Notes under the pieces: generated by a model
Seen by the model: only the letters and a program-made list of their open reading frames with translations
What the model was told of the DNA's origin: nothing
Database searches by the model: none
Position numbers and translations under genes: made by a program
DNA from: Methanoregula sp.
GTDB taxonomy: Archaea > Halobacteriota > Methanomicrobia > Methanomicrobiales > Methanospirillaceae
NCBI RefSeq assembly: GCF_028679125.1
Contig: NZ_JAJRCG010000001.1
Coordinates: 124,001-188,000 of the forward strand
Length of the DNA stretch: 64,000 bases
Reading direction: 5' to 3'
In this document: one piece after another, positions 295 to 16,982 of the stretch
Numbering within the stretch: the first letter of the stretch is position 1
Layout of the letters: each line of letters begins with the position of its first letter

Positions 295-1452
295 ATGAAA
301 GTAATTCGTTTGAAAGCGAAAAATTGGAGAAATTTTCAGGATGTTGATATCTCTCTTCAAGATATCACATTTTTAATAGGTCCAAATGCATCTGGCAAAT
401 CCAATTTTATTGATATTTTTAGATTTTTACATGATATTGTCGTAATTGGCCTTCAAAAAGCTATTACCACTCGTGGGGGAATGTCCAAAATTCGTTGTTT
501 GTCCGCGAGAAGATATCCAGATATTGAGATTGAAATCCATTTAGGGGAACGATATGACCAATCACCAACGTGGATTTATTCTCTACGGATCATGCAAGAA
601 GGCCGCAGAAAACATCAACATTTGGTGCGTTCAGAAGTTATTGTTAAAGAGGGAAAGCGGATTTTAAACCGACCTGATGATAAAGATAAATCAGATCGAG
701 AAAAATTATCGCGGACGCATCTCGAACAAATGCAAGTTAATGATGCGTTTCGTCCAATTTTCCAATATTTTGAGACATTTAAGTACTTTCATGTAATCCC
801 TCAATTAATTCGAAATCCTCAAGCATTCTCCGGCCCGGGAATTCCTGAAGATCCATATGGGCAACATTTTCTTGAATATTTGGCGAAAACAAATCCGAAA
901 TTAAGGAAAAATCGTTTAGATAAGATTCAGGATGCTCTACGAATTGCTGTTCCAAGATTACAAGAATTATCTTTTGTAAAAGATGAACTTGGCTTTCCAC
1001 ATTTAGAAGCTCATTATGATCATTGGCGGCCTAAAGCGGGAAAACAAAGAGAGGATCAATTTTCTGATGGCACCTTAAGGCTTATTGGACTCTTGTGGTC
1101 AATTTTAGATACGAGGGATTCTTTACTATTGCTTGAGGAACCTGAATTATCATTAAATTCTGGAATTATTCAAAATTTAGTTCCAATTATATATGAAATT
1201 CAAAAGAAAAAAACAAAACCTAGCCAAGTGGTAGTCAGTTCGCATAGTTGGGAATTATTATCATATTCCGGAATTCGAGGGGATGAAATTATTATTTTTA
1301 ATCCCACGCATGAAGGAACGGATATAAAATTAGCATCTGATATTAGAGAAATTCGGAAATTATTACAAAGTGGAATGCTTCCGGCAGATGCCATTTTCCC
1401 TGTAATATCTCCAAAAAATATTGGGACACAATTAACGTTATTGGAGTTTTGA
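295..1452 (+). CDS. AAA/OLD-like ATPase, first gene of a putative two-gene defence module
   Basis: A 385-residue ABC/SMC-type ATPase of the AAA_15/AAA_21 class that includes OLD, RloA, AbiL and PARIS AriA proteins. It shows a Walker A GPNASGKSN at residues 29-37, a signature-like SDGTLR near 258, a Walker B LLLLEEPELSL near 278 and a switch SSHSW near 315. The start ATG has GGAG 10 bases upstream. Its stop is followed with no gap by the next ATG, so the two genes are surely co-translated. The pair is A+T rich, unlike the neighbouring genes, which indicates recent transfer. Known relatives act as sensors that release or activate a partner effector on phage attack; that role is inferred from family and gene pairing. 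Plain DNA repair (RecF-like) is less likely because of the partner gene. Confidence 0.8.
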   Translation: MKVIRLKAKNWRNFQDVDISLQDITFLIGPNASGKSNFIDIFRFLHDIVVIGLQKAITTRGGMSKIRCLSARRYPDIEIEIHLGERYDQSPTWIYSLRIMQEGRRKHQHLVRSEVIVKEGKRILNRPDDKDKSDREKLSRTHLEQMQVNDAFRPIFQYFETFKYFHVIPQLIRNPQAFSGPGIPEDPYGQHFLEYLAKTNPKLRKNRLDKIQDALRIAVPRLQELSFVKDELGFPHLEAHYDHWRPKAGKQREDQFSDGTLRLIGLLWSILDTRDSLLLLEEPELSLNSGIIQNLVPIIYEIQKKKTKPSQVVVSSHSWELLSYSGIRGDEIIIFNPTHEGTDIKLASDIREIRKLLQSGMLPADAIFPVISPKNIGTQLTLLEF

Positions 1453-2052
1453 ATGGAAAAAATTCCAATTAATATTGTTTGTGAAGATGATTGTTCCGAG
1501 GCAACAATAAAAAAAATTATTGCTATGCGATCTGATTTGGAAATAGGTACAATTTACAAAAAAAGAGGAAGAAACTACATTCAAGAAAATATCAATTTCT
1601 TCAATGAAGTTGCTGAAGTCACACCATATATTGTGTTCTCAGATTTAGATTTCGATACATGTGCTCCAAATTTAATAAGAACATGGCTGAGAAAAGAGAA
1701 ACATAATAATCTTCTTTTTCGCATTGCAGTACCCGAAGTAGAAGCTTGGTTAATTGCCGATACCCAAAATTTTTCAAGATATTTTGAAGTACCAAAACAA
1801 GAAATTCGACAAGATGTTGAATTGTTATATGATGCAAAAAAATATCTTTTTCATATCATCGGAAAACATTGCAAAAAAGACATTCAAACTGATATTTTGC
1901 CGAAAGGAACGTCAACTGTCGGAAAAGGGTATAACAAACGTATGTTAATTTATATTTCGCGATATTGGAATCCGATGAAAGCAAAAGAAAATTCAGATAG
2001 TTTGGATCGTTGTATTAACAGGGTTTTAGAATTCTCACCTTCAATTGAATAA
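1453..2052 (+). CDS. TOPRIM/DUF4276-like partner of the OLD-like ATPase
   Basis: A 199-residue protein starting directly after the stop codon of the ATPase gene. It has an N-terminal strand ending in VCEDDCSE (residues 9-16), a DLDFD motif at 64-68 and EVEAWLIAD at 95-103. An acidic residue after the first strand plus a DxD motif is the TOPRIM pattern, and the EVEAWL stretch resembles DUF4276/RloB-type proteins found next to AAA_21 ATPases. By analogy with RloAB, AbiL and PARIS it would be the effector (nuclease or toxin) held or triggered by the ATPase. Codon use is A+T rich like its partner. The family name is from motif recognition, not a search; the catalytic role is inferred. Confidence 0.65.
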   Translation: MEKIPINIVCEDDCSEATIKKIIAMRSDLEIGTIYKKRGRNYIQENINFFNEVAEVTPYIVFSDLDFDTCAPNLIRTWLRKEKHNNLLFRIAVPEVEAWLIADTQNFSRYFEVPKQEIRQDVELLYDAKKYLFHIIGKHCKKDIQTDILPKGTSTVGKGYNKRMLIYISRYWNPMKAKENSDSLDRCINRVLEFSPSIE

Positions 2053-2096
2053 GGGTATCCCCCAATCGCCCCCCATTCTCTCAATAAGTGGATCAA

Positions 2097-2459
2097 CTAT
2101 CTTAGATTAAACCCCGGTCCATACCCCATCTCACTCATCACCCGCCCCGTCACCTTCAACACCGGCTCCCCGGTCTCAGCAACCGTCTCCTTCTTGATAG
2201 CGATCCACTCTTCGTCCGCGAGAAATGCCTTCCACTGGCGATCCATTGTCGCGACATCAGGCCAGCGCAGGATATAGATGAACTCAAAGTCCACAACCGA
2301 CGTACTTTCCCAGAGCGCAACAAACTCGAAACCGTACCGCTTCATGATCCGCATTGCGTGGTTCCTGAACCGGTTATGGAAGACCTCCTTCTTGTCGGGC
2401 GCGACCTCATAGATACGAATCTGGTAGACACCACGGGAATTGTTCTGCTCGTTCGTCAT
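2097..2459 (-). CDS. NIPSNAP family protein
   Basis: A 120-residue protein of the NIPSNAP family (dimeric alpha/beta-barrel fold). The segment YQIRIYEVAPDKKEVF, the later FEFVALWES and the YILRWPD motif with following tryptophan are the usual family landmarks. The start at 2459 is chosen because GGAG lies 8 bases upstream; an ATG nine codons earlier (2486) has no such site. The gene converges on the defence pair and has ordinary base composition, so it marks the edge of the A+T-rich insert. Family members are small cytosolic proteins of poorly defined role, some related to monooxygenase-like barrels; no catalytic function can be assigned here. Confidence 0.8.
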   Translation of the reverse strand: MTNEQNNSRGVYQIRIYEVAPDKKEVFHNRFRNHAMRIMKRYGFEFVALWESTSVVDFEFIYILRWPDVATMDRQWKAFLADEEWIAIKKETVAETGEPVLKVTGRVMSEMGYGPGFNLR

Positions 2460-2544
2460 GATTTGTACTCCAGTATCACGCTGCAAAAGATTCTCAAAAG
2501 GGATAGCAGTGCAACGATGATGTATCTTATCGTGTGATGGCGGA

Positions 2545-3000
2545 CCCCCCCTCCCGTACGTGGGGGGGGGGTCTCCCGGATACCCCCCGGCTCAAAAACG
2601 CCCCGCCTCAGCAGATGTACAGACGGCAGACCCGGCTCTACCGGTGATTTCCCGGAACCCCCCGGCCCCTGATCGAAGGGGGGTCTGGTGCATACCCCCC
2701 CACCCCCATGCAGGGGGGGTCTGATCGATTTGAAAAAAAGTGGAGGGGGGGTATGCCGGACACCCCCCTCCTCAAAAATGGGAACTGTGCATTATTGCAC
2801 ACGGATTTTTCAGGCCCGTGTATCCAAGGTCCGGGGGAGCGGTCGTTTCGAAGGCTTCCCAGAAATGATCACGGGGGGTCTGATCCGGCCGGAGGGGGGG
2901 AGGGGTATGCCGGATACCTCCCCCCCATGGGGGTGGGGGGGTCTGATCGATTTGAAAATAAAAGGGAGGGGGGGTATGCTGGATACCCCCCTGCATGCCA
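2545..3000. repeat. Poly-G/poly-C dispersed repeat, cluster A
   Basis: This non-coding stretch is packed with runs of 6-10 G or C. The recurring pieces are a hairpin core (a C run, the spacer ATGCA, a G run, then TCT), a linker beginning GATTTGAAAA, a second G run followed by TATGC, and a C run often followed by TCCTCAAAAATGG. About four imperfect copies are present (about 2560, 2671-2790, 2873-2930 and 2925-2990). A segment of about 50 bp starting at 2671 recurs almost exactly at 17136, and the hairpin core recurs again near 62045. The open frames through it are artefacts of repetitive sequence. Confidence 0.85.
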
Positions 3001-3067
3001 GCTCCCGGCATCGCCGTTCCATATCGCAGCCCGGATCCCCGCACGCGTACCTGAACGTCCGGGTACC

Positions 3068-3586
3068 TCAGATCGGGACACCCAGGCGCTGCTGACTGCA
3101 TTCCTCGACAGTATCGGTCATGGTATTGTAGGACAAATTCCTGTTGTATGCGTCCCGTACCAGAGGAATTCTCTTGTTCTCTCTTGCATATCCCGCACTG
3201 GTAGCGTCATCTTTTGTCGCTTTGAGGATGTTATACTTGTAGTTCACCGCACACACCCCTTTCGGGTCCGGAGTATTCTGCATGCAGGTGGTAAACGCCA
3301 GCTGGGTGGTTACATCGGAGATAACAGGGGTAGCAGCCAAACATACATTAGCCGCATTGAAAAATGCCGTGTCCGCAATTGCCGCCGTGTCCGGTTCCGG
3401 GGCTGGTGCGGATGTCGGCAGGGGGGTAACTGCGGGGGTCGGCGTTGGAGTATACGTGACCGCCTGAGTGTTTTCAACCTGACCAACCGGACCAACCGGC
3501 GTGTTACTGGTACTCGTACAACCACTTATAGCCGTCATCAGGACGACAACTGCCATCATTACCATGAGAACCGATGAACCTTTCAT
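3068..3586 (-). CDS. Predicted lipoprotein, function unknown
   Basis: A 172-residue secreted protein. Residues 1-23 form a lipoprotein signal with lipobox ISGC, so the mature protein should be lipid-anchored outside the membrane. A Pro/Thr-rich linker follows (repeated TPTP and PAPEP, about residues 40-66), then a globular part of about 100 residues with five cysteines that may form disulfides. I recognise no family. It reads away from cluster A repeats and lies at the left end of the island of secreted proteins; similar Pro/Thr-linker lipoproteins occur at 24164 and 25162. Confidence 0.7.
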   Translation of the reverse strand: MKGSSVLMVMMAVVVLMTAISGCTSTSNTPVGPVGQVENTQAVTYTPTPTPAVTPLPTSAPAPEPDTAAIADTAFFNAANVCLAATPVISDVTTQLAFTTCMQNTPDPKGVCAVNYKYNILKATKDDATSAGYARENKRIPLVRDAYNRNLSYNTMTDTVEECSQQRLGVPI

Positions 3587-3659
3587 GTTCCTTTAGATCG
3601 ACTGGGGGACGATAAACTCTTGGATTGGGGACCCGCTGCACACACGGTCTCACTCTCCT

Positions 3660-3883
3660 CTGGTATCCAACGTCCCGACCGTGCTGACCTTCGTTGTCGC
3701 GCTGATCATCTCAACGGTTATCATTTACTACGTTGCAAAATTCTTCGGTGCAAAGGACAGTCTGACCACGGCCGTCCTCGCTGCACTGATCGGCACCGCT
3801 GTGTACACGATCTTTTATTACGTGCTGGGCCAGGGGCTGCTGCCGGTATTGCAGAAACTGTACACGATCGGCTGGCTTCGGGC
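3660..3883 (+). pseudogene. Relic of the small membrane protein found intact at 11878-12198
   Basis: The sequence matches the N-terminal two thirds of the membrane protein gene at 11878 almost base for base. Three lesions make it a relic. The start ATG is replaced by CTG at 3660. An in-frame deletion of 30 bases removes the middle of the second hydrophobic stretch (the segment equivalent to 12065-12094). The match stops abruptly after the codons for GWLRA at 3883, where it runs into the 3' end of the convergent surface-protein gene. Relic and intact copy lie in the same orientation on either side of the 3.9-11.5 kb cluster. Confidence 0.8.
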
Positions 3884-3903
3884 CAAAAAAGAGTATTTCC
3901 CTT

Positions 3904-5427
3904 TTAGAAAACTCCTGACAGGAAACCCCAGACCTGGTCTATCAGGTTGGCGGATGCTGTAGTTTTTGTGTTCTGTCCGCTGGTCAACGGGTTCGGTGTT
4001 TCCGAAACCAGGTTCGATTGTACGGGTACGGTATCACCGGATCCGGCCGGGTTAACGGTTGAGGGGAAGATCACGATCGTGTCATCGACAGCCGGATCTT
4101 CGAATACCTGGACAAGCGCTTCGTAGGCATCGTTGCCCTGCAGGCTCCCGGCCCCGCGAATCTTGAATACGCGTGTACCATCTGCATTGGTGTTGTCCTT
4201 GAGCATCCGGTTCAGGACCCAGCCGTCCGCTGTGTTTCCTGCGGTATTGTTGGCCAGGTAAATATCAAAGACATTGTTCAGCATCGGGTGCTGGACGACA
4301 ACATGGAATTTGCCATCTTCCAGTCCGGTCGTTGCCCTGTCGAGATCCAGGGAATAGGATCCGGCGGGATTCGGGTGGACAATTACCTGGTCTGCGTAAC
4401 CCGCCATGCCGGAACCCGGCGCACCAATGATCCAGATGGCCACACCGGGACCCGGGTTGCCTTTTGCGGTACCGGAGATCGTGATCGTGTTTCCCTTCAT
4501 GACAACCGAGAGTGTCGAGAGATTGCCCTCCGGGGACTCGATGTTCGCCGGCCTCGCCATGATGAAGGAGACCCTGGCGTACTGCGTGTCGTTTATATGA
4601 GGGAGATCCCGGGGCGAACCGGCTGCAAACACCTCGAACATGCCGGCATCAATGAGGGCCTTCTGGCTGTTCCATGTATATGACCATTGGTGATCCGCAC
4701 CGACACTGGCTGCCAGGAACGTGGATGCATTGTTGTCGATAACGGGGGAGTTGCCCGGATGTGTACTCTGGATCTGTGCTCCCTTCGCGTCCAGGTTGGG
4801 CCCGGTGATAAAGAGATACGTTGTACCGGAACCGGTGTTGGTGCCGGAGAACGTGACCGTATCTCCTATGGAATACCTCCCGCTTTTAGGCTGGGTTATG
4901 GTTACGGATGCATTGCTTCCGGTTCCTGCCGGGTTCCCACTGGTGGATGTGTCCATGGCGGCCACTTGAGCGTTTGCCGGTCTTTTCATGATGAAGGTAA
5001 CCGTATCGAAACGCGTACTGTTGACATGCGGTAAATCCCGTGGTGTACTGGCTGCATAGACCGTGTACACTCCGGCATCGATGAGCACGTTCTTCGTATT
5101 CCATTCCCAGGACCATGTGTTACCTAGAGAACCCCTGATGGCGAGGAACGTGGATACATTGCCATCAGTAACGGGAGAATCGTGCGGATTGGTACTCTGG
5201 ATCTCTGATCCTTTCGTGTTCAGGTTGGGCCCGGTAATAAAGAGGTACGTTGTACCGGAAGCGTTGTTGGTACCGGAGAACGTGAGTGTATCTCCGATAG
5301 AATAAGCCCCCTCGTTGGGCTGGACGATTGTTACGGATCCTCCGTCTCCGGTGGATCCCGCGACCGGGATTATCGCAGCCAGGATCGACAGGCATACTGC
5401 GAAAAGTACAAACAGGTTTTTCTTCAT
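3904..5427 (-). CDS. Secreted surface protein with two DUF3821-like repeats and a GNPGPG domain
   Basis: A 507-residue secreted protein. The start at 5427 gives a clean signal peptide (residues 1-24); upstream in-frame codons are ignored. Two repeats of about 118 residues follow (30-148 and 173-291), each with YSIGDT.TFSGTN, TTYLFITGPNL, a W-rich strand, a tyrosine/phenylalanine-rich strand and PRDLPH. They resemble the Methanomicrobiales DUF3821 domain (family name from memory). A third domain at 307-457 is marked by GNPGPG, VVVQHPM and LQGNDAYEAL. There is no C-terminal membrane anchor. The third domain and one repeat recur in the receptor kinase at 9312 and the protein at 5657. Its promoter carries tandem palindromes (5493-5528), the same layout as the 5657 gene, implying shared control. 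Ligand or function unknown. Confidence 0.8.
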   Translation of the reverse strand: MKKNLFVLFAVCLSILAAIIPVAGSTGDGGSVTIVQPNEGAYSIGDTLTFSGTNNASGTTYLFITGPNLNTKGSEIQSTNPHDSPVTDGNVSTFLAIRGSLGNTWSWEWNTKNVLIDAGVYTVYAASTPRDLPHVNSTRFDTVTFIMKRPANAQVAAMDTSTSGNPAGTGSNASVTITQPKSGRYSIGDTVTFSGTNTGSGTTYLFITGPNLDAKGAQIQSTHPGNSPVIDNNASTFLAASVGADHQWSYTWNSQKALIDAGMFEVFAAGSPRDLPHINDTQYARVSFIMARPANIESPEGNLSTLSVVMKGNTITISGTAKGNPGPGVAIWIIGAPGSGMAGYADQVIVHPNPAGSYSLDLDRATTGLEDGKFHVVVQHPMLNNVFDIYLANNTAGNTADGWVLNRMLKDNTNADGTRVFKIRGAGSLQGNDAYEALVQVFEDPAVDDTIVIFPSTVNPAGSGDTVPVQSNLVSETPNPLTSGQNTKTTASANLIDQVWGFLSGVF

Positions 5428-5471
5428 AAGTATTCCCGGGATCGTTTTCTCCTGCAAGGTAATAAGCACCC

Positions 5472-5528
5472 AAAATATCCGGGGTTATGGGGTGAACCTC
5501 CCGGTTCAGCCCTGAAATGGCCGGTGCA
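5472..5528 (-). promoter_or_regulatory. TATA box with tandem palindromic sites upstream of the 3904-5427 gene
   Basis: Read on the minus strand, a TATA-like element lies at 5472-5480. Thirteen bases upstream of it is the perfect inverted repeat TGAACC-TCCC-GGTTCA (5493-5508), followed 20 bp further by a weaker copy at 5513-5528 (TGAAAT, GGCC, GGTGCA). The same two elements, with the same period and the same distance to TATA, stand before the paralogous gene at 8254. The position just upstream of the TATA box fits an activator site. Confidence 0.6.
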
Positions 5529-5656
5529 GCCGGAGAACAGGGTAAAAAGAGTGTATCCCTCGTTTTTCACAGGAGGAAGCATTTTTTAAAAAGAATCAGA
5601 TCTGGATATGCGGGACACTCCCTTCTCAGCCTTCGCGTCACGGAAAAAAGGCCCGA

Positions 5657-8254
5657 TCAGGTACGGTGGATGTAGTGCAACGACAGCAGGGTCCCGTTCT
5701 CTGAATCGACCCATCCCTCGGCCGGGTCGGGGTAATCCTGTGCCCGGATCGCGGTATCATCGAACCGGACATACCAGCCAAGCGGGATGACGCCGGGCGA
5801 TGGGAGGTACTGATCCTGGTTGTAGATATCCATCCACCGGAGGTCCGCAGATACGATCCTGAAACTGTCGGACGATTCCGGGTGGCATATCCTGGCATGC
5901 CGTTCAACAAGCGCTGTTGCTTCGTCACGGGAGATGGCCGGGGAAGATTGCGCTGCGACCGCATTCTCCGGAGTGTACCATGCCTTATAGTACCTGACGA
6001 CGTTACCGGTCCCCGGATCCACCGTAATGGTGATACCGTTATTGTTGCTGGGGACCCCCTGAATGATTCTCCGGTAATCAAAGAAGTAGGTGCCGTCATA
6101 ATCAGCCTGCGAATCGACCAGCGTTAAGGGGAGTCCGCCATTCCGTTCCCGGATCTCGTTCTCCGCAGCCCGCTGTGCAATCTCCATGGATACAGCGGCG
6201 AGACGGGGTACCTCCAGAGTACCCGTCCAGTACCGGGAAGGAACCTGGTACTCGGTAAGATCGCCGGTATTCGCATCGAGCGTGCCAAGGACAAGTTGCT
6301 GGTCGCCCTTACGCATGTCAAAATGCCACCAACGGGAGTTGACGGAGATATCGGAATAATCCATCACGATACGGTCGGGGGAATACTGCGGGAACGCGGA
6401 CCTGGCGATCTTTTCTGCCTGCTCTTTCGTTATCACTGCACCCTTCTTCGCAAAAGCGGAAGAGTAATTCCCCGCCGATACCGCAGTGAATACCGATGTA
6501 TTGTACCAGACGCACCCGATGATATCGCGGAAGTTTTCATTGTTAACCGGAGAGAAACCTGCAGGAATCACATTCAGACGGGAAAATCCTTCCATTGCCA
6601 TAGTTTCCCCGGCAGTTGTAACCTGATCGGCTGGAATTGCCTGGACGCCGGTCCCGGACAGGGCCGGTTGATCGGTCACCGGATTAATCCGGGCGGCAAG
6701 GATGAAATCGGATCCCGGGATGGGATTGCCGGCCGGATCGACCTCCGTCACCGTGAACAGCGTGACGTTTGCGGACGATGTTACGCGGGGTGCCGTTCCG
6801 TTCAGCGTTACTTTCAGCCATTCGCCGTTTGATGGCGGGTAGGACAACACCCATCCGCTGACACTCAATAATCGGCCGGCTGAATCCGGCTGGGGATTTT
6901 CAACGCCGTCAAGGACAAGAGAATACTCCCACCGGGGTTTCTCCAGGCCGGTTGACATCTGCAGAACGTCCGCCGAAGGGAAGGTCTCGTTACCGGTCTC
7001 CGAAAAGTTCACCCTGAACGAGACGGTTACCGGGATCCCGGATGCAAGGTCCCCCGTTGGATCGACCACGACCGAGTCCACTTCAAACGAGGATCCCGCC
7101 GCGGGTTCTGCATAGGGAAATTCATTCCGGGGCTGCGTGATTGCTGTTTCTCCCGTTTCTCCCGTGTCGTTTACGATCACCGGCCGGGACGTTTCCCCTG
7201 TTGTTACCCCGGCTGGAGTGACCGACGGTGAGGGAGCGATCGCAATAATATCATCGACATTCGGATCTTTGAACGCCTCGATGAGCGCCTTGTAGGCATT
7301 GTCACCCTGCAGGCCCCCGGGACCATACATCATGAAGATTTTTGAACCATTTGCATCGTTGTTCTCTTTGAGCATCCTGTTCCAGATCCAGGAGTTCATG
7401 CTATTTTCGTTGCCGTTGGTGTTGGGGGTGATATCAAAGACCTTGTTCTGCATCGGGTGCTGGACGACAACATGATAATTGCCGGCTTCTATCCGGCTGA
7501 TCGCATTGCTGTCGATGATGTAGGTGAAATAGTTCCCTGCCGGATCCGGGGAAACATATCCCCAGCCGGACCCGCCGCCCCCGTGTACCGGATCGGGATC
7601 CCACTCCGTGGTCCAGATCACGAGTTCGGGAGGCGGGTTGCCTTTTACCGTACCGGAGATCCTGATCCTGTCTCCCTCCCTGACAACAGAAGGCGGCGGG
7701 AGAATATCGTTATCCGAAATACTCTGCCGTTCCGGCCGGGTTATGATAATGGGTTCATTGCTGCCGGTCGATGCGATCATACCCGTCGGCATTCCCGTGT
7801 TTTCCGGCGAAAGTTTCAGGAACGATACCGTGTCGGAATTCGTTCTGTTGATATGGGCCAGATCCCGTGGCGCTCCGGCAGCATGGATCGTGAACGTACC
7901 GGGCCCGATGAGAACATTCCGGGTATCCCACGTGTATGACCACCGGTTATCTGGTCCGACAGGGACCGCCTGGAACGAAGATGCATCGCCATCGCTCACC
8001 GGAGACTGGTCCGGGTGCATGCTCTGGATCCGGGCACCGTTCATGTTCAGGCCGGGTCCGGTGATAAAGAGATACGTTGTACCGGAATCCGTATTTGTAC
8101 CGGAGAATGTGATGATATCTCCCCAGGTATACATCCCGCTTTGTGGCGCGGCGATTGTTACGGAGCCGCCATCTCCGGTTAATCCTGCTGCCGGACCAAT
8201 GACAGTCAGGAGAAACAGGCAGATGGCTGCAGGAACGAACAGGTTTTTTCTCAT
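5657..8254 (-). CDS. Secreted multidomain surface protein: DUF3821-like, GNPPPE, TFPsaD and PepSY-type domains
   Basis: An 865-residue exported protein. The start at 8254 is set by GAGGGGT immediately upstream and by a good signal peptide (residues 1-25). The order is: one DUF3821-like domain (about 30-148), a domain like the third domain of the 3904 gene (about 180-345, with GNPPPE, VVVQHPM and LQGDNAYKAL), and a module of about 140 residues containing TFPSAD, LVLDGVENP and LNGTAPRV that also occurs in the proteins at 14916 and 15913. The C-terminal region of about 280 residues has repeated elements such as ITKEQAEKIARSAF and SRDEATALVERHA, typical of PepSY/YcdB-type domains known as protease propeptides or inhibitors. 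No membrane anchor is visible. Promoter elements match those of the 3904 gene. Role unknown; a surface-bound protease-inhibitor-like or adhesion function is conceivable. Confidence 0.8.
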   Translation of the reverse strand: MRKNLFVPAAICLFLLTVIGPAAGLTGDGGSVTIAAPQSGMYTWGDIITFSGTNTDSGTTYLFITGPGLNMNGARIQSMHPDQSPVSDGDASSFQAVPVGPDNRWSYTWDTRNVLIGPGTFTIHAAGAPRDLAHINRTNSDTVSFLKLSPENTGMPTGMIASTGSNEPIIITRPERQSISDNDILPPPSVVREGDRIRISGTVKGNPPPELVIWTTEWDPDPVHGGGGSGWGYVSPDPAGNYFTYIIDSNAISRIEAGNYHVVVQHPMQNKVFDITPNTNGNENSMNSWIWNRMLKENNDANGSKIFMMYGPGGLQGDNAYKALIEAFKDPNVDDIIAIAPSPSVTPAGVTTGETSRPVIVNDTGETGETAITQPRNEFPYAEPAAGSSFEVDSVVVDPTGDLASGIPVTVSFRVNFSETGNETFPSADVLQMSTGLEKPRWEYSLVLDGVENPQPDSAGRLLSVSGWVLSYPPSNGEWLKVTLNGTAPRVTSSANVTLFTVTEVDPAGNPIPGSDFILAARINPVTDQPALSGTGVQAIPADQVTTAGETMAMEGFSRLNVIPAGFSPVNNENFRDIIGCVWYNTSVFTAVSAGNYSSAFAKKGAVITKEQAEKIARSAFPQYSPDRIVMDYSDISVNSRWWHFDMRKGDQQLVLGTLDANTGDLTEYQVPSRYWTGTLEVPRLAAVSMEIAQRAAENEIRERNGGLPLTLVDSQADYDGTYFFDYRRIIQGVPSNNNGITITVDPGTGNVVRYYKAWYTPENAVAAQSSPAISRDEATALVERHARICHPESSDSFRIVSADLRWMDIYNQDQYLPSPGVIPLGWYVRFDDTAIRAQDYPDPAEGWVDSENGTLLSLHYIHRT

Positions 8255-8297
8255 ACCCCTCACGGGATCTACTCTTTCCTGCAAGATAATAAGCGCC

Positions 8298-8376
8298 TCA
8301 TATAACCGGGGTTATGGGTTGAACTTCCCGGTTCAGCCCTGAACCGGCCGGTGCAACCCGGTAAAGAAGATATAAC
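8298..8376. promoter_or_regulatory. Divergent promoter region with tandem palindromic operators
   Basis: On the minus strand a TATA-like element GTTATATGAG lies at about 8299-8308 and serves the 5657-8254 gene. On the plus strand GATATAAC near 8369-8376 serves the FHA regulator. Between them sit two 16-bp palindromes with a 20-bp period: TGAAC-TTCCCG-GTTCA at 8320-8335 and TGAACC-GGCC-GGTGCA at 8340-8355. The first starts 12 bases upstream of the minus-strand TATA box, as in the paralogous promoter at 5472-5528. A dimeric winged-helix protein binding here could control both directions; the divergently encoded FHA-wHTH protein is the obvious candidate. Confidence 0.6.
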
Positions 8377-8409
8377 TCCGGAACGCATATGCTGAAAGAG
8401 GGAGTGGGT

Positions 8410-9231
8410 ATGAGGGAAACGGGTAGCAGGACCTGGGTACATCAGAATGACCCGGGCGAAAAGTTCCGGACGGTCGAGGGTCTCGGAGACCTGGACCCGC
8501 TTGCAGAACTCTCCGAATACCTCGATGTCCTTTCGAACAGCACCCGGCTTAAGATACTGAAATGCCTGGAGAAAAAACCCGGCACAACCCGGGAGATCTC
8601 GCAGGAGGTCGAGACCAGTTATGAGAATACGAAAAAGCATCTCGACCGGCTCTGTCAGATCGGGGTGATCAAAAAAGAGGCAGGGATCACGGACCCCCGG
8701 CAGAAAGGCGTCCAGCTCTTTTGGGAATACTCCCTTGTGCCCGGCGGGCTTGAACTGATGGTCCGCAATCTGGGACTGTTCTCCCACATGAAAATGCATA
8801 TTGTCAGGAACGATATATCCGAAAAGATCGACGAGACACGAAAAATGGTCTCCCGCGAACTCTTCGGAAATGCCCCGGTCCTCATCGTGCTTGGCGGGCA
8901 GGATGACGGGATGGCCTTCTCCCTCTCCCACGATATCATACTGATTGGCAGGACCGATCCTGAAAAACAGGCACTGGTCAGTCCCGGACAGGACCTTGTC
9001 CTGTCGCAGGGATATTCCTCCGTGAGCCGGGTCTCCCGGCCCCATGCCCGGCTTGTCCGGAACAAAAAAACCTGGTGCATCGAGGACTGCGGGAGCCGCG
9101 GGGGCACCACGATCAACAAAACCCCCCTCGGCCAGAACGAGTATGTTCCCCTCCATGACGGGGATCTTATCGAACTGTCGAAGGGAACGACCGGCGCAAA
9201 ACTTCTCGTGATCATCCCCCCGGGTACCTGA
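8410..9231 (+). CDS. Winged-helix transcription regulator with C-terminal FHA domain
   Basis: About 273 residues. The N-terminal part (about 25-95) is an ArsR/HTH_20-type winged helix: LSNSTRLKILKCLEKKPGTTREIS followed by KHLDRLCQIGVIKK. The C-terminal part (about 165-270) is an FHA domain with the expected phosphothreonine-binding landmarks IGR, SRPHARL and GGTTIN. FHA domains bind phosphothreonine peptides, so this protein probably changes activity after phosphorylation of itself or a partner. The start at 8410 is preferred because GGAG lies 5 bases upstream; an in-frame ATG at 8389 lies almost on the expected transcript start. It is transcribed away from the 5657 gene through a region with tandem palindromes and converges on the receptor kinase gene at 9312. 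Kinase substrate or reader is the natural inference. Confidence 0.85.
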   Translation: MRETGSRTWVHQNDPGEKFRTVEGLGDLDPLAELSEYLDVLSNSTRLKILKCLEKKPGTTREISQEVETSYENTKKHLDRLCQIGVIKKEAGITDPRQKGVQLFWEYSLVPGGLELMVRNLGLFSHMKMHIVRNDISEKIDETRKMVSRELFGNAPVLIVLGGQDDGMAFSLSHDIILIGRTDPEKQALVSPGQDLVLSQGYSSVSRVSRPHARLVRNKKTWCIEDCGSRGGTTINKTPLGQNEYVPLHDGDLIELSKGTTGAKLLVIIPPGT

Positions 9232-9311
9232 TGAGGCCCCCTCCTACGGCCGGGACGCCCGGGTTTCCGGCAGGGCCAGCAGGTCTATAAAACGGCAAAG
9301 AAGAGGTTCTT

Positions 9312-11504
9312 TCAGGACCCGTCACCAGGGAGGTCCGTGTCATGGTCACCCAGGTACCCCCCGAGGGCATCCAGTAACTCATCGGCTGACTGGTAACGCT
9401 GTTGTGGATCCTTGGCAAGGCATTTCAGGATAATTTTTTCCACGTCCGCTGCATCCGGATTAAAATATGAGGGGATGACCGGATCGTCATAGAGTATCTC
9501 ATTGACCATCTCCATCATGCTCGCGTCATCAAACGGTATCATGCCGGTGACGAGTTCGTAAAAGACCGCGCCAATCTGGTACATATCCGTCCGTTCATCC
9601 GTACTGCCGAATTTTTCCGGTGCGATCTGTTCCGGTGCCGCATACGAGAGAGAGAAGCCGGCAACCGTGGTATTCCTGGTATTTTCTTCAAGGACTTTGC
9701 TGATCCCCCAGTCGGTGATCTTCGGCACGATCTCAACCGTGAGGAGGATGTTCTGCGGCTTGATATCGCGGTGAATGCACCGGCGTGCATGGGCATACCG
9801 GATCCCTTCCGCAATACCCCGGATAATCCGGGCTGCCGTGAGGACCGGCACCGGTTTTGCCAGGGTATCGAGGGACCCGGCGACAAATTCCATCTCGACA
9901 TAGGGAACCGGGAGAATGTTTGCCGCTGTCACTTCGACAATATTGGGGTGGTGCATGGTCTCCCACACCTTTATCTCGTGCAAAAAGGACCTCCCGGTCC
10001 TTTCATTCGACCTGATGGGAATCTTGATGGCGACTTTCCGGTTGTCGCTTACACGGTACGCGGAATAGACCATGGCAAATCCCCCGCTGCCGATGGGGGA
10101 GATCTGCGTGTATTTACCCGCGAGTTCCTCGGGAAACGCATTCATCGGGGACGCCGGGGATGCAGGATCTCCTGCTGCCAGGGTTACCGGGAGAGCAATC
10201 CCGGTATCTCCCGTCCGCCCCTGTCCCGCCTTCCCCTCCGGGAGAAGGAGCGTATCGCAAGGAGAATTTTCCGGAACGGTGTTGTTTCTCTTTTTCCTGG
10301 AGAGAACTATCGCACCGCCGATACCTCCAAGGAGGACGATGCCGGAGATCCCCGCAAGGATTCCGTACGGCAGGCCGCCACCGGAGTTCGCTGCGGGTGA
10401 GATATTACCGGAAGAATTGCCGGGCACTCCCTGCACGGTCTCTGCCGGGATGGGGGTCGGTGAACTGCCGGCAGCTGCCGGTCCTGCGGTGTTGTTATTG
10501 ACGATCCTGGTGCCGGAACCCGTGGTTCCGTTGCCGTTGAAATACGTCACGTTAACCGACGGGGAATTGGATAATGCAGCGGCAGCGGTTGCCGGGGGTG
10601 TCCCAAAGGTGAATGAGACCGGTACGATCAGGTCATCATTCTTCGGGCCATTGACCGCGGCGGAAAATGCGGAATATGCAGCCTCTCCATAGAGTCTCCC
10701 GTTTCCCCGGAACGTGAATATGTTTGAACGGATCCTGTTGTTGAACAGGTAATCGCCGTTCAGGTCAAAATCAAACGCGTCATCGGCCGAGGGGTGTTCA
10801 ACAAACACATGATAATTCCCCGGGAGCAGGTGGGTGGCTGCACTGTCGATACCCAGGGAAAAGGACCCGTCAGGATCCTGTCCGACAACAGACCTGTCTG
10901 AATAGTTCGGGCCAATCACCCAGATGGCAATACCGGGTCCCGGGTTTCCGGTCGCCCTCCCGGAGATGGTGATCGTATCTCCCTGTTTCGCTGCCGTTGG
11001 ACTGACTGATGCGGAGAGTACTGGTTCTGTGATATTGATTGCCACACTGTCATAGATCGCACTGCCCAGGTGCGTTTTGTCACGCGGCGTACTGACCGCA
11101 TAGATCGTATAGGACCCGGTATTCAGGGGCACTTTATGGGTATCCCAAGTCCATGTCCACTGGTGGTCGGTCCCGACCGGGACAATCTTGAATGTGGATC
11201 CGACACTGTCAGTGACAGGCGAGATTCTCGAATCATTGCTCTCGATCTGTGAACCGGCAGCCAGAAGACTGGGTCCGGTGATGAAGAGATAGGTCCTGTT
11301 GGAATCGGTGTTGGTACCGGAAAACAGGATTTTGTCGCCAAAGATAAAGGATCCTCCTGCGGGTGGGGACGTGGCAATGGTGACGGCAGAAGGACTAATG
11401 ATTTGTGCCGGGCTCCCGTTAAGGGATGCCGAGACCGGTTGTATCGCAACGGGGATGACGAACAGACATGAAGCGACAATTATTAAAAAAATGACCTCTC
11501 TCAT
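9312..11504 (-). CDS. Receptor-like transmembrane Ser/Thr protein kinase with DUF3821-like ectodomain
   Basis: A 730-residue protein. The start at 11504 gives a signal peptide (1-26); a TATA-like AATATTT about 25 bases upstream suggests a nearly leaderless transcript. The outside part holds a DUF3821-like domain and a GNPGPG domain shared with the secreted proteins at 3904 and 5657, then a Thr/Pro/Gly-rich stalk. One membrane helix lies at about 380-402 and is followed by basic RKKR. The cytoplasmic kinase domain (about 465-715) is complete: glycine loop GSGGFAMV, VAIK lysine near 494, HRD aspartate in HRDIKPQN near 580, DWG in place of DFG near 598, and APE near 623. It is therefore a Hanks-type kinase likely to be active. 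It neighbours an FHA-wHTH regulator, the expected partner. Bacterial PASTA kinases have a comparable layout, but this ectodomain is different. Confidence 0.9.
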   Translation of the reverse strand: MREVIFLIIVASCLFVIPVAIQPVSASLNGSPAQIISPSAVTIATSPPAGGSFIFGDKILFSGTNTDSNRTYLFITGPSLLAAGSQIESNDSRISPVTDSVGSTFKIVPVGTDHQWTWTWDTHKVPLNTGSYTIYAVSTPRDKTHLGSAIYDSVAINITEPVLSASVSPTAAKQGDTITISGRATGNPGPGIAIWVIGPNYSDRSVVGQDPDGSFSLGIDSAATHLLPGNYHVFVEHPSADDAFDFDLNGDYLFNNRIRSNIFTFRGNGRLYGEAAYSAFSAAVNGPKNDDLIVPVSFTFGTPPATAAAALSNSPSVNVTYFNGNGTTGSGTRIVNNNTAGPAAAGSSPTPIPAETVQGVPGNSSGNISPAANSGGGLPYGILAGISGIVLLGGIGGAIVLSRKKRNNTVPENSPCDTLLLPEGKAGQGRTGDTGIALPVTLAAGDPASPASPMNAFPEELAGKYTQISPIGSGGFAMVYSAYRVSDNRKVAIKIPIRSNERTGRSFLHEIKVWETMHHPNIVEVTAANILPVPYVEMEFVAGSLDTLAKPVPVLTAARIIRGIAEGIRYAHARRCIHRDIKPQNILLTVEIVPKITDWGISKVLEENTRNTTVAGFSLSYAAPEQIAPEKFGSTDERTDMYQIGAVFYELVTGMIPFDDASMMEMVNEILYDDPVIPSYFNPDAADVEKIILKCLAKDPQQRYQSADELLDALGGYLGDHDTDLPGDGS

Positions 11505-11877
11505 TGTTTCCGGCTCTGGAGAAAAATATTGTGCTTTATTATTAATAACATGCTGATATTTCCGTCCTTTTCCTGCAAGGGAAACTAGAGACAAGAAACG
11601 GGGCTAAAGGGGATCTGGTTCGCGTATGGATCATTCAACTGCACACGCACAGAGGAATGGATGAATAAATAACAGAAAAATTACGAAGGCGATGGTGATT
11701 TCCTGAGTTCTTCCGTATCCGATTCGTGGGAATAAGGAGTGGTCACCTGGCAGATTTCCTCAAGCCCTCTGTCCGCTCCTCTGCAAATCCCCTTCATTCC
11801 TCCTCCCGGTACGATGCGTCGCTCCAATGAATATACCTCCACGACAGGATTAATTGCAAAAAGCACAAGCACTTTAC

Positions 11878-12198
11878 ATGGTATCGAACGTCTCGACCGT
11901 GCTGACCTTCGTTGTCGCACTGATCATTTCAACGGTCATCATTTACTATATCGCAAAACTCTTCGGTGCAAAGGACAGCCTGACCACGGCCGTCCTCGCT
12001 GCACTGATCGGCACCGCCGTGTACACGATCTTTTATTATGTGCTGGGCCAGGGGCTGCTGCCGGCATTCATTGCCGGGATCGTCTGGCTGTTGGCATTGC
12101 AGAAACTATACACGATCGGCTGGCTCCGGGCGTTCGTGATCGCGGTCTTCATCTGGATCGTGACCTCCATCGCCGGGTGGTTCCTGCCGGTGCTGTGA
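11878..12198 (+). CDS. Small integral membrane protein, three helices
   Basis: A 106-residue hydrophobic protein with about three membrane segments: residues 8-30, 38-75 (probably two close helices with FYYVLGQGLLP between) and 82-104. No charged catalytic motif is visible and I do not recognise the family. The ATG at 11878 is used; a TTG eight codons upstream (11854) is also open. A damaged copy of this gene lies at 3660-3883 in the same orientation, so the two copies flank the 3.9-11.5 kb cluster of kinase and surface proteins. It lies just upstream of a 600-base stretch without genes. Confidence 0.7.
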   Translation: MVSNVSTVLTFVVALIISTVIIYYIAKLFGAKDSLTTAVLAALIGTAVYTIFYYVLGQGLLPAFIAGIVWLLALQKLYTIGWLRAFVIAVFIWIVTSIAGWFLPVL

Positions 12199-12801
12199 TA
12201 CGGATTTGCACTACCGGGTACTACCCGGTATCCTCTTCCGTCACCTCATCTCCCCATCTGTCGGAACAATTCCCTGATTACTGCTCCCCCTGGCTCTCCC
12301 TCTCCGTCGGAGACCCCCCGTCACAACCTGTCTGACAACACCCCCCTACAAAATTCTCCGACGTGAAACATCCGTTCCGGATCTGATCCGCCTCTTCTTC
12401 GCCACTTCCGACACCCGGTGGCACCCCCCGATTTGCCTATAGAATGCGAATACGTGCTTCTTTTTGCTGGGTGATTTTCGCGTGTGCATGTGCAAAAAGG
12501 GGGAAGCCGGTTTTGGGGGCGATCGGCCGCTGGAACACTGCTAAATACTGTCATTGTCCGGGCACAGTTTACCTGGATTTACGCCAATCCGGGGGTATTT
12601 TGAACGAATCCCAAAACAATACTGTCGTTTTTCCGGGCAATACTGTCGGTGATGTAAAAAAACAGGGTGATCCGGGGCGGAAATGAGCCCGGATTGGGGG
12701 ATGTCAAAATCCATGGATCCCCCTACGTCCCTCAACGGTTGGAGCACAGCCCACCCATAACAGGGATCATGGGGCGTCTGGAGGGGCCGTGCCGGTATCC
12801 C
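12199..12801. other. Gene-free stretch with a short direct repeat
   Basis: No convincing gene. TACTGTC occurs three times (12546, 12620, 12641), and the first two copies are each followed within 4-6 bases by TCCGGGCA, giving a direct repeat of about 20 bases at 12544 and 12618. The open frames here lack codon bias, start sites and recognisable protein features. Confidence 0.45.
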
Positions 12802-13209
12802 TCACTTCAGCCCGTTCCTGATGAACGTGTCGGAATATTTCTTGTCCGTCTCCCTGATGTGAGTAGTCACCCAGTCTTTGAGGAAATTCATGAGATCAAG
12901 CGAGAGCCCGAGCTTCCCTGCCTGGTAATCCGCCTGGAACCCGGTGACCTTTTTAACAAACGCATCGTGTTTCAATTTGTGGCTGAGGTAACCGGGATAC
13001 TTGAACTGCTGCATGTACTTCTCCTCGGCCTGGAAATGGTACACCGCATAGGAAGCAAGCTCCTGCAGGGTCGTCTCCAGCACCTGCTTTGCCTGTCCGG
13101 CTTTCATTGCATCGTGCAGGGTATTGATCAGCTGGATGAGTTTTTTGTGCTGGCTGTCGATCTCCCCTACCCTGACACTCAGGTCTTCGTTCCAGTTCAT
13201 GAGAGCCAT
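12802..13209 (-). CDS. Bacteriohemerythrin-like oxygen-binding protein
   Basis: About 135 residues, the normal size of a single-domain hemerythrin. The start at 13209 gives the classic N-terminus MALMNWNEDLSV. Di-iron ligand motifs are present in order: DSQHKKL near residue 21, a histidine in NTLHDA, YHFQAEEKYM, HKLKHDAF and THIRETDKKY. The protein should bind O2 at a non-haem di-iron centre in the cytosol. In an anaerobic methanogen this would serve oxygen scavenging or sensing. It lies downstream of a histidine-kinase remnant and a FMN-binding PPOX-type protein on the same strand, so a redox-related context is possible. Confidence 0.92.
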   Translation of the reverse strand: MALMNWNEDLSVRVGEIDSQHKKLIQLINTLHDAMKAGQAKQVLETTLQELASYAVYHFQAEEKYMQQFKYPGYLSHKLKHDAFVKKVTGFQADYQAGKLGLSLDLMNFLKDWVTTHIRETDKKYSDTFIRNGLK

Positions 13210-13277
13210 AACGCTTGATTTTATCCGGGAAGTGATAAAGCCATCTACGGGACCGGTGGAGCAGCCGGGGCTCCGCA

Positions 13278-13650
13278 TTACCTGCGGAAGATTCCTTCCG
13301 GTACCGCGATCGCGAATCGAGCACCCTCCCCCGGGATACCGGTCTCGCTGATGGTGATGCCGGTGATTGACAGGATCTCCCGGGAGAGGAAAAGTTCGAG
13401 CCCGGTATTTTTCCCAAAACCGCGTTCGAACAGGTGCGTTTTGTCTTCCCGGGAAATGCCGGCCCCGTCATCAGCAACGGATATGACGAGTCCGGTGCCG
13501 GCGGGACGATGGGATACCGATATGCGGGTGACTGTCCCCCCGTGCTGCCGGGCATTATCGAACAGGTTGTAAGAGACCTTGATAAGGAGCGGGTCAGTAA
13601 AACCGGCCCCGGAAATGTGATCTTCCTCTCCCCTTACAGGAGAATACCGG
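13278..13650 (-). pseudogene. 3' remnant of a sensor histidine kinase (HATPase part)
   Basis: The readable part begins around DPLLIKVSYNLFDNARQHGG, the N-box of a histidine kinase ATPase domain. It continues with DDGAGI (G1 box), HLFERGFGKN and a G2-like GLELFLSREIL in which the usual second glycine is glutamate, and ends with GARFAIAVPEG. No phosphoacceptor histidine, sensor domain or start codon exists upstream: the frame runs straight into the PPOX gene at 13693, where it only shadows that gene. The left edge at 13650 is approximate. It is the C-terminal third of a methanogen PAS-type kinase, truncated at its 5' end. Confidence 0.75.
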
Positions 13651-13692
13651 AGAGCCGCTTCATTATTACCAGAAGGGTACTCTGTAACCGTA

Positions 13693-14106
13693 TCAGCGCT
13701 TCCAGACTTCCAGGCTTGACATATTTTTGCCGTGGTACGTGATCTCGCCCGCTTTGAATACGAGCACGACAAAATCCGGGTTCTCGGGTGTCTTGAAGAA
13801 TTGCTCGTACATCGGGATCCAGTACTTCTTCTTCGTTGCAACGTCCTCGTGGATCGTTCCTTTTGCCGCTATCTCGACATATGGTTCGGAGAGTTCCTTC
13901 CCCGACCAGATCGAGAGAGCTGCCGCAGCGTTCTTCTTCAGCTGGCCGACCTTTTTGCTGGCCTTCAGGCTCGCCCCGACAAGGGTCATATCGGGAAAAC
14001 CGGTAAGCACCATGAACCGGACGTCCGGCAGCTTCCCATCCACTGTTGCAACAGCGGCTGTATGCGGGCCGCCGATCACTTCCATAATCTGGTCTTTGAG
14101 TGCCAT
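13693..14106 (-). CDS. Pyridoxamine 5'-phosphate oxidase-like FMN-binding protein
   Basis: About 137 residues, typical of the short general-stress-protein-26/PPOX class (split beta-barrel). The motif order HTAAVATVDGKLPDVRFM, FVGAS-like LVGASLKASKKVGQL, then AALSIWSGK and a C-terminal VEIAAKGTI strand is characteristic. Members bind flavin or other cofactors (FMN, F420, haem) and reduce small substrates; the exact reaction cannot be told. The start at 14106 has AGGGA 9 bases upstream; the ATG at 14115 would overlap that site. It lies on the same strand as the kinase remnant and the hemerythrin gene downstream. Confidence 0.85.
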   Translation of the reverse strand: MALKDQIMEVIGGPHTAAVATVDGKLPDVRFMVLTGFPDMTLVGASLKASKKVGQLKKNAAAALSIWSGKELSEPYVEIAAKGTIHEDVATKKKYWIPMYEQFFKTPENPDFVVLVFKAGEITYHGKNMSSLEVWKR

Positions 14107-14181
14107 GCGGGACATTCCCTGTCATGATCCCATATACATTGGGATTGGGGAACCCCGATCGACGGGAACAGAGTTTTGATG

Positions 14182-14331
14182 CTCCTGCACCGGAACCGGT
14201 TCAGCCCGGGGGTTTGGGAACCATCGGTTACATTTCCTGCACTGCAGTTTCGGTCCGGTCTCTGTGGCACGCTACCGAAGCCCGCGGTGCGGGCAGGTGA
14301 ACGCGTGATCGTGGACAACGTCATCTGTCCT
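14182..14331 (-). pseudogene. Inactivated copy of the zinc-ribbon gene at 16714-16863
   Basis: This 150-base stretch aligns without gaps to the intact 49-codon zinc-ribbon gene at 16714-16863. The start ATG has become AGG (14331-14329). The second cysteine of the first CxxC (residue 16) has become arginine. The tryptophan codon 20 has become TAG (14274-14272). The rest still reads ETGPKL.C.KCNRWFPNP.AEP. The last codons of the overlapping 14321-14887 gene run into it. Relic and intact copies flank the three-gene secreted-protein operon at 14321-16542. Confidence 0.85.
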
Positions 14332-14887
14332 GTATGTTCGGAACCGGATTTACGTCATCACCCTGTACAGTTGTAGTTTCCCTGTTCGCAGCCGGCAAGC
14401 CGGTGCGATCCCATCCTGTCAGAAAAGATCGTGTAATACTGTCCATGATATTCGAAGACGGTGAAGAGGGGAAACATTCAGCACGCGTCTTGTTTTTACA
14501 TGCTGCATCATAAAACCGGTAAAGGTCACTTTCGTTCCCCTGGAACCAGGTTACAACGCGTGAACCGTAATTCCATGCAGCGGGATCGTTATTTACCCCC
14601 TGCATGGATCTCGCAAACTCGGGAAAATCTGCAAAATCATCCCGATTAAGGAGTATCATAGTCATATTCATTTTGTGAACTTTACTGAGATTCCATTCCT
14701 GAATCTCAAAATTCGTATCGATTATCTTCTGGCCCTGCACCAGGTGATCTCCCGGTGATGAAGAATGTACTGAGGGGAGATCCTTTGCAGGGAACAAGAT
14801 TCCGTATAGGGAAAAACCGCCCGCAATTCCCAGGACTACGATGATACTGATCAGGATAATAGTAAGTATCAGGACTTTTTTCTGCAT
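14321..14887 (-). CDS. Membrane-anchored extracytoplasmic protein, function unknown
   Basis: A 188-residue protein with an N-terminal membrane helix (about residues 5-28) not followed by a clear cleavage site, so it is probably an anchored outside protein. The outside part has a FPEFARSMQG segment, several tryptophans and two cysteines (KNKTRAECFP). I recognise no family. It is the third gene of a minus-strand operon after the genes at 15913 and 14916 (28-base gap). Its last 11 codons overlap the zinc-ribbon relic, suggesting that the original 3' end was lost and a new stop adopted, so the C-terminus may not be ancestral. Confidence 0.6.
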   Translation of the reverse strand: MQKKVLILTIILISIIVVLGIAGGFSLYGILFPAKDLPSVHSSSPGDHLVQGQKIIDTNFEIQEWNLSKVHKMNMTMILLNRDDFADFPEFARSMQGVNNDPAAWNYGSRVVTWFQGNESDLYRFYDAACKNKTRAECFPSSPSSNIMDSITRSFLTGWDRTGLPAANRETTTVQGDDVNPVPNIQDR

Positions 14888-14915
14888 AGTACCGTCGGGA
14901 TAAAGTGATGGTAAA

Positions 14916-15908
14916 TTATGGGTGCATCAATGGCGCTGTTGTCGGAGTGAGAGTCGGCTCACGCGGTGTTACTCCGTATAGGGGCATAACGGTAAGCTCC
15001 CTTGTTACGGTACTATTGGGGACAACATTCCCGAAATTATCCACAACGGATATCTGTACGACGTTTTTTGTCCTGCCTTCACGCACGGCCGGTGCGGTAC
15101 CCTGAAGCGTAACCACAACCCGCTCTTCGTTTACATTCCCCGGGTAGGAGAGTTCGAACCCGCTCAGGTCCAGCACCGTACCGGGCATGGCAGGCCGTTT
15201 GTTCTCGACACCATCAAGGACAAGGGTATATGACCACTGCGGGTTGTCAAGTGTTGTGGAGAAGACCAGGTCATGATCCGTGGGGAACGTCGTTGCCGTC
15301 CCCGTCAGTACAAAATTAATGGAGGATGTCACGGTCACGGGGGTTCCTGACGTAACAGGCCCGCCGGGATTCATGGTGACCAGTTCTTCCAGGATAAGTT
15401 TTTCCGGACTGACCGCTGCGGGCGATCCGGGTTTTACTAAAACGACTGATGTCGTGCCATAGGGGGAATATTCCAGGTGGTTTTTGTCATGCGGCTTACT
15501 GACGGCAAACACCGTGTACGCCCCGGGAGCAACGGTACTCTTTCCCGTGTCCCATGAAAAGGACCAGCGGCCATCCGCTCCCACGGCCGCTGTCGCGAAT
15601 GTGGAGGCATCGCCATCAGTGACCGGGGCGCCTTTCGGGTAATCACTCTGGATCTGTGCGCCGCCCTCGTCCAGGTTGGGCCCGGTGAGGAAGAGATAGG
15701 TTGTCCGGGAACCGGTGTTGGTGCCCGTGAGGTTGATCGTATCGCCATTCCGGAACTGGAAGACGGGGTCTGCCTGTGCACTTTCGGGAATCACTGCATA
15801 TACGACCACACTTCCCGGTTCGGCTGCAGGGGTTTGGGCTGCCACTGCCGTGACGATGGCGAGCAGGACTGCCACCACGATCAGAATCGAAGAGATTTTC
15901 CGGTCCAT
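14916..15908 (-). CDS. Secreted protein with one DUF3821-like and one TFPtdD-type domain
   Basis: 330 residues. The start at 15908 gives a signal peptide (1-25 ending AVAAQ) with GGGAGTG placed 5 bases upstream; that site overlaps the stop of the preceding gene, indicating translational coupling. Residues about 30-160 are a DUF3821-like domain (FRNGDTINLTGTNTGS, TTYLFLTGPNLDEGG, PHDKNHLEYS). Residues about 170-310 are the module with TFPTDHDLVFSTTLDNPQW, LVLDGVENKRP, SGFELSYPGN and LQGTAPAV, which is also in the upstream neighbour at 15913 and in the large protein at 5657. No C-terminal anchor. It probably acts on the cell surface together with its anchored neighbour; function unknown. Confidence 0.78.
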   Translation of the reverse strand: MDRKISSILIVVAVLLAIVTAVAAQTPAAEPGSVVVYAVIPESAQADPVFQFRNGDTINLTGTNTGSRTTYLFLTGPNLDEGGAQIQSDYPKGAPVTDGDASTFATAAVGADGRWSFSWDTGKSTVAPGAYTVFAVSKPHDKNHLEYSPYGTTSVVLVKPGSPAAVSPEKLILEELVTMNPGGPVTSGTPVTVTSSINFVLTGTATTFPTDHDLVFSTTLDNPQWSYTLVLDGVENKRPAMPGTVLDLSGFELSYPGNVNEERVVVTLQGTAPAVREGRTKNVVQISVVDNFGNVVPNSTVTRELTVMPLYGVTPREPTLTPTTAPLMHP

Positions 15909-15912
15909 TGTT

Positions 15913-16542: not shown

Positions 16543-16713
16543 GAGGAATTATAAGCCCAGTCTCTATTTATGTATTACATTATTATTCCCGGATTATGGC
16601 GATAGGCATACTGTCCCTTTTTAAAATGGTGTTCTCTTTCGTCCTCATTGTTGAGAATATGCTGACGGCTCCCGCTATACGGTGAGCCCTGCGTTTGGAA
16701 GATACCGGTGATG

Positions 16714-16863: not shown

Positions 16864-16982
16864 GTATGCCCGGTATGCCAAGGGTAATACATAGGCATAT
16901 CGATCGGGGAACCTGTCCAGACGGTACCGCACGGATGTATCGTCCCCTTATTTGGATCTCCTTTCTCCTCATCCAAAAAATA

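Follow-up and report, generated by a model that had tools for sequence, protein, structure and literature searches.

To our knowledge, it is largely an open question how archaeal cells perceive the condition of their envelope, and one locus in a Methanoregula genome (2.67 Mb, 33 contigs, estimated completeness 94%) brings it into view. In a window of 64,000 nucleotides (contig C1, positions 124001-188000), the gene for a receptor Ser/Thr kinase lies beside the gene of a DNA-binding regulator that carries an FHA domain, followed by two genes for secreted proteins, here called 3904 and 5657 after their first coordinates (Table 1). A preliminary description of this DNA had proposed that these four neighbours form a signalling system controlling surface proteins, and all four were confirmed in place among the open reading frames (ORFs) of the window. 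Is this a dedicated signalling system, and what would it sense and control? The best reading in our analysis is a Ser/Thr-kinase analogue of two-component systems in Methanomicrobiales, of which the window would hold a copy with a borrowed S-layer sensor. Taken as a whole, this reading, a cognate relay of kinase and FHA regulator with an S-layer sensor that acts through dyads on the regulator gene and on 3904 and 5657, seems to us moderately probable.

The pairing of kinase and FHA regulator is strongly supported, because the neighbourhood is conserved in relatives and the genome itself pairs the two three to three. It holds three FHA matches and three kinase matches with an expectation value (E) < 1e-40, paired one to one, each FHA less than 2 kb from one of the three strong kinases; four weak kinase matches rank next, one reaching the family cut-off only with frame neighbours added. 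In the other two pairs (loci L091 and L092), the winged helix-turn-helix (wHTH)-FHA gene lies directly ahead of the kinase gene on the same strand, and in L092 the gene ends overlap. Conservation in relatives had been suggested as a check on the proposal, and it was borne out. A scan of genome contigs found 111 relatives and retained 80 loci, which together with L091, L092 and the window gave 84 wHTH-FHA ORFs; a kinase lies in the same locus for 76 of them, on the same strand in 74, and the eight without a kinase sit near contig ends (345-1944 bases remaining downstream). The gap between regulator and kinase exceeds 300 bases in three loci (L014, L028 and L082), and L082 has two FHA ORFs for one kinase. 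A family search supplied another sample, in which at least 58 of 68 kinase matches had an FHA match within 4 kb, 56 of these on the same strand, and for the other ten the FHA lay on another contig (6) or was absent (4), in each case among the matches listed. Across the class, 153 of 232 genomes (33/40 genera) have the regulator profile, and an even sample of the phylum at E 1e-20 gave it in 6/60, namely 6/8 of the window's order and 0/52 outside.

Kinase and regulator genes are convergent in the window, contrary to the usual order, an arrangement that recurs among the 84 ORFs only in L011, the nearest relative locus (Methanoregula sp. PtaB.Bin085). A mainly Methanoregula set of 23 rows has the window together with L011 as its sister group in both trees (for the kinase tree, among the rows listed). 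Distances of the two proteins correlate closely (68 pairs, Mantel r 0.88; maximum of 999 permutations 0.16), which points to joint inheritance rather than interaction, because shared species history gives such a correlation too. One might suppose that the kinase mainly acts on other targets and that the FHA protein reads the marks of several kinases, so that adjacency reflects history and not a dedicated relay. Cross-talk is conceivable among three similar pairs within a single genome, and the DNA half-sites by the L091 regulator resemble those of the window. However, the one-to-one pairing, the matching trees and the differing sensors of paired kinases, with a pairing that outlasts both gene inversion and sensor exchange, argue for a dedicated partner, and we consider this explanation unlikely. 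In our judgement, these comparisons place it beyond doubt that the kinase and the wHTH-FHA regulator constitute a conserved module.

The kinase has the architecture first ascribed to it, apart from the name of its outer part. Hydropathy indicates a signal peptide and a single membrane helix, and the kinase domain matches Pfam Pkinase with E 4.7e-43. The Hanks residues are all present, namely the VAIK Lys, the C-helix Glu, the HRD Asp, the Asn and the Asp at the DFG position (DWG in the window kinase). These five occur in 75/75 kinases, the window's included, which, judged on sequence alone, argues against an inactive enzyme. The ectodomain had been called DUF3821-like; this name was rejected, since no DUF3821 (PF12863) match at E 0.1 was found in the window proteins scanned, and a genome-wide search gave none at the kinase locus. 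It matches instead the NCBIfam S-layer glycoprotein family NF041431 at about family positions 390-655, that is, past DUF3821. Assignment as a carbohydrate-binding or Big_7 domain was also set aside, the Pfam matches being sub-threshold only. The 50 Foldseek rows listed for the ectodomain are generic Ig-like and other beta proteins, and its likeness to an S-layer structure was obtained by VIA-align on the top Foldseek candidates. As a whole protein, the window kinase scores 207.8 against NF041431, where the family cut-off is 600 bits, and by that curated cut-off it does not itself count as an S-layer protein; the genome has its own S-layer gene, on contig C24. Pfam gave no PASTA match at E 0.1 in the kinase, and the PASTA kinase family NF033483 is matched by the kinase part only (4-269/563).

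The regulator gene encodes, as described earlier, a winged helix (HTH_24/HTH_5) followed by an FHA domain (E 8.2e-15). Its helix motif TSYENTKKHLD is almost invariant across relatives. The phosphothreonine-site residues are also conserved in the 84 ORFs (R 84/84, His 84/84, N 83/84, S 79/84, with T in 4 and A in 1), and the window FHA carries the GR Arg, the SxxH Ser and the Asn. A structure model with a predicted local distance difference test (pLDDT) score of 80.8 matches FHA structures including GarA complexed with PknB, and it also matches the fold of EmbR (2ff4, 2fez), at domain level only. We regard a kinase-to-FHA function as likely.

Control of the surface genes had been proposed as the output of the system, and the DNA lends this prediction support through candidate sites, a dyad before 3904 and another in the promoter region shared by 5657 and the regulator gene. 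The inverted repeat upstream of the regulator gene is retained in L011, and in 28 aligned Methanoregula-type upstreams, GGTT and AACC half-sites alternate upstream of the TATA-like box. The dyad AACY-N4-RGTT occurs upstream of 37/84 regulator ORFs (against a mean of 0.7 and a maximum of 3 in shuffled sequences, and of 1.7 and 6 in random segments taken from these loci), including 26/28 of the Methanoregula type, and the control arrangement RGTT-N6-AACY is found in 0/84; these figures describe and do not test, because the pattern was picked on the same sequences and the relatives share history. Elsewhere in the genome, the 24-base element has no match with up to 3 mismatches except an overlapping reverse match at 8332-8355. 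Genome-wide, GGTTCA-N4-TGAACC, which is the dyad in its second phase, matches exactly only at 8330 and at 11 further sites with a single mismatch (backward control 0). Since the dyads lie upstream of TATA-like boxes, an activator would fit slightly better than a blocker.

In 977 kb of loci there are 26 occurrences of the strict form TNAACYN4RGTTNA: 12 lie in regulator upstreams and the others at window position 5493 (1), in L075 (1), 0.3-0.73 kb past the kinase (10) and at the kinase 3' end (2). This spread does not support a rule of a dyad at every surface gene. The strict dyads at or past the kinase are those of L057 (9618), L068 (9595), L065, L069-L071, L073, L076, L078, L081, L089 and L090, the last two being at the kinase 3' end; by eye, those in L057 and L068 directly precede a receiver-like gene.

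The descriptive standing of the dyad counts is the first of several points that weigh against the relay with surface targets. Outside the Methanoregula-type set, AACY-N4-RGTT was found for only 11/56 regulator ORFs. The looser TRAACY-N4-RGTTYA has 4 genome sites, two of them the window operators, and its backward control also has 4, so that the placing of the dyads and not their number is the evidence. Counts of the two patterns within the window are no higher than chance (6 vs 3.4 and 4 vs 3.2), and pattern scans of the window gave no dyad-type site upstream of its kinase gene; in the usual gene order, the kinase gene could share the regulator's promoter. The S-layer ectodomain was found in 2/68 kinases scanned, the window's counted, and its structure model, built on four sequences, has low confidence (pLDDT 67.9). 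In one genus (g2, three genomes), regulator and kinase matches fall on separate contigs, and the two genes may be apart in the genome there. Finally, 3904 and 5657 share 74% identical DNA (5145-5528 and 7972-8355) spanning coding start and operator; because this identity runs from coding sequence through the operator, the second operator copy may be a remnant of duplication. As a separate observation, the remaining two genome-wide TRAACY-N4-RGTTYA dyads lie near ORFs that by eye appear secreted or membrane-bound.

This duplication is central to another explanation, in which the pair is real and the regulator controls its own promoter only, the coat-like genes being tandem duplicates that donated the kinase ectodomain and the second operator copy a relic of their duplication. 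The dyad is present at regulator genes of several genera, and it also occurs in L011, where protein matches to 3904 and 5657 are confined to the kinase ectodomain. However, the 38-base operator block (picked by eye) is identical between the 3904 and 5657 promoters at 36/38 positions (95%), against 50/73 in the rest of the upstream and 322/480 in the coding start (67-68%), and given the origin of the two genes by duplication, this identity speaks for constraint and not for independent origin. Moreover, 5657 directly shares the regulator's upstream region, and L011 retains the operator block together with much of the divergent leader. Control restricted to the regulator's own promoter is possible but rather doubtful, and we consider regulator control of the coat-like genes probable.

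The products of these genes share the receptor's ectodomain, as the preliminary description had it, at 39% (3904) and 34% (5657) identity by blastp, the shared domain being the S-layer type, and 5657 carries YcdB/DUF4901 in addition. The 3904 product scores 319.9 against NF041431, below the 600-bit cut-off, and phmmer against solved structures gave no relative of it at E 1. A fourth protein with S-layer domains is encoded at 14916-15977 (NF041431, E 1.6e-30), beside a smaller secreted-looking protein (15913-16542), and an 81-base stretch by these genes is 88% identical to part of 3904.

In the relay that we favour, a kinase in the membrane, whose outer sensor can be exchanged, would signal to a DNA-binding partner whose FHA domain docks on phosphothreonine. 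In the window copy, two S-layer Ig-like domains carried on a linker of ~70 residues make up the sensor, a build that could place the kinase within the S-layer lattice or in contact with it. Kinase activity may respond to changed lattice contacts, whether these stem from damage, from growth, from a loose subunit of the S-layer or from one of the secreted neighbours; the autophosphorylated kinase or the phosphorylated regulator would engage the FHA domain, and this would change binding of the regulator at its two operators. Expression of the regulator, 5657 and 3904 genes would shift in turn, with feedback through the surface. S-layer sensing by the kinase is plausible. We advance more tentatively a specific form of it, in which the cell would monitor its own S-layer through a kinase disguised as an S-layer subunit: the D4-D5-like ectodomain would lie where hexamers join in the lattice, the kinase would be switched when a neighbour is lost or altered, and the FHA regulator would reset expression of lattice-like proteins. 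If true, archaea would widely possess a Ser/Thr counterpart of two-component signalling, and the S-layer-monitoring kinase would be one of its sensor versions. For the question of envelope sensing in archaea, the locus provides a candidate sensor made of domains of the envelope itself, next to its cognate regulator and to short candidate operators.

The S-layer part could alternatively detect virus attachment, making the kinase an anti-virus sensor. PADLOC PD-T4-6 kinase models match the kinase (best E 7e-56), and HEC-01A/B candidate defence system models match two adjoining genes beside the locus (295-2052; E 4e-140 and 3e-54). However, the PD-T4-6 match covers the kinase domain only, kinase-domain models of other systems match as well, and the pair occurs widely across the class, joined to sensors of various kinds, so we hold a defence role to be very improbable.

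Further features surround the relay genes. A 190-base direct repeat (93% identical, 3661-3850 and 11879-12068) brackets the whole locus; its copies involve an apparently intact gene for a small hydrophobic protein (11854-12198) and a truncated-looking copy at 3681, with a homologue in L011. A hemerythrin-domain protein is encoded nearby (12802-13278, E 3e-15), and a dispersed short repeat family (~74-93% identical) occurs at 2662-2992, 17128-17217 and 61833-62125; no tandem array was reported in window positions 1-17000. No phosphatase was seen in the cassette, and the two PP2C-like genes are both on other contigs; apart from the three pairs, a weak kinase match stands beside a PP2C-type phosphatase gene on contig C10 (71653-73079). 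At L091, a secreted, probably surface-anchored protein (6632-7594) is encoded upstream of the common regulator-kinase operon, with homologues in 24/80 related loci, all on the regulator's strand and 23 of them 0.36-2.05 kb upstream. As for gene starts, ATG 11504 is favoured for the kinase, since residue 1 of the L011 kinase aligns with residue 31 of the listed ORF; ATG 8410 is likely for the regulator (alignment with L011, by eye), and ATG 5427 and ATG 8254 are probable for 3904 and 5657.

Table 1 Features of the kinase/FHA-regulator locus (window coordinates).
Feature	Position	Strand	Remarks
Secreted protein with S-layer domains (3904), predicted target	3904..5427	-	domains 4978-5343, 4075-4908
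Predicted operator, second copy	5493..5518	.	upstream of 3904 gene
Secreted protein with S-layer domains and YcdB/DUF4901 (5657), predicted target	5657..8254	-	domains 7820-8170, 7250-7690; YcdB/DUF4901 5984-6319
TATA-like box of 5657 gene	8299..8307	-	by eye
Predicted operator	8320..8355	.	overlapping dyads TGAACTTCCCGGTTCA (8320-8335) and GGTTCAGCCCTGAACC (8330-8345), between divergent 5657 and regulator genes
TATA-like box of regulator gene	8369..8376	+	by eye
wHTH-FHA regulator gene	8410..9231	+	273 aa
ArsR-like winged helix	8536..8673	+	conserved motif TSYENTKKHLD, taken as recognition helix
FHA domain	8941..9177	+	phosphothreonine-site residues present
Receptor Ser/Thr kinase gene	9312..11504	-	730 aa from ATG 11504; listed ORF begins at TTG 11594
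Hanks-type kinase domain	9375..10112	-	catalytic residues intact
Membrane helix	10320..10376	-	hydropathy; ~70 residues beyond ectodomain match
Ectodomain, two S-layer Ig-like domains	10596..11387	-	NF041431 positions 392-655; putatively D4-D5, assigned by order

A literature search, with most subscription journals outside its reach, found no description of such a kinase/FHA system, and the nearest known systems each share a part of it. In mycobacteria, the PknH and EmbR genes are adjacent. PMC2877116 and PMC1262709 describe PknH as a Hanks kinase and its partner EmbR as an FHA-containing DNA-binding protein, which also carries a BTAD domain (PMC1262709). The window pair likewise joins wHTH and FHA in one protein beside a receptor kinase; however, it is archaeal, its sensor is of S-layer or beta-helix type, and its ArsR-like wHTH regulator has no BTAD match at E 0.1, for which reason we do not class it as PknH-EmbR. 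Phosphorylation-dependent control of surface structures by an archaeal FHA protein is described for Sulfolobus ArnA/ArnB with the kinases ArnC/ArnD, where the FHA protein pairs with a vWA protein in Crenarchaeota, and the accessible text of these reports mentions no fused wHTH or adjoining receptor kinase of the window type (PMC10470591, PMC13286277). A search for vWA, whose sole scope was eight window proteins, found none. In the Methanospirillum S-layer protein Mhun_2263, Ig-like domains follow DUF3821 (PMC11641113). Such post-DUF3821 domains are common to the kinase ectodomain and the 3904 and 5657 products, whereas these three lack DUF3821, one has a kinase domain attached, and all score far below 600 bits. 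Histidine-kinase two-component systems combine an exchangeable sensor with a cognate DNA-binding partner in the same locus, linked by His-Asp transfer. The window system resembles them in its exchangeable sensor, its cognate partner in the locus and its probable self-control, but it would use a Ser/Thr kinase and an FHA reader in place of His-Asp transfer.

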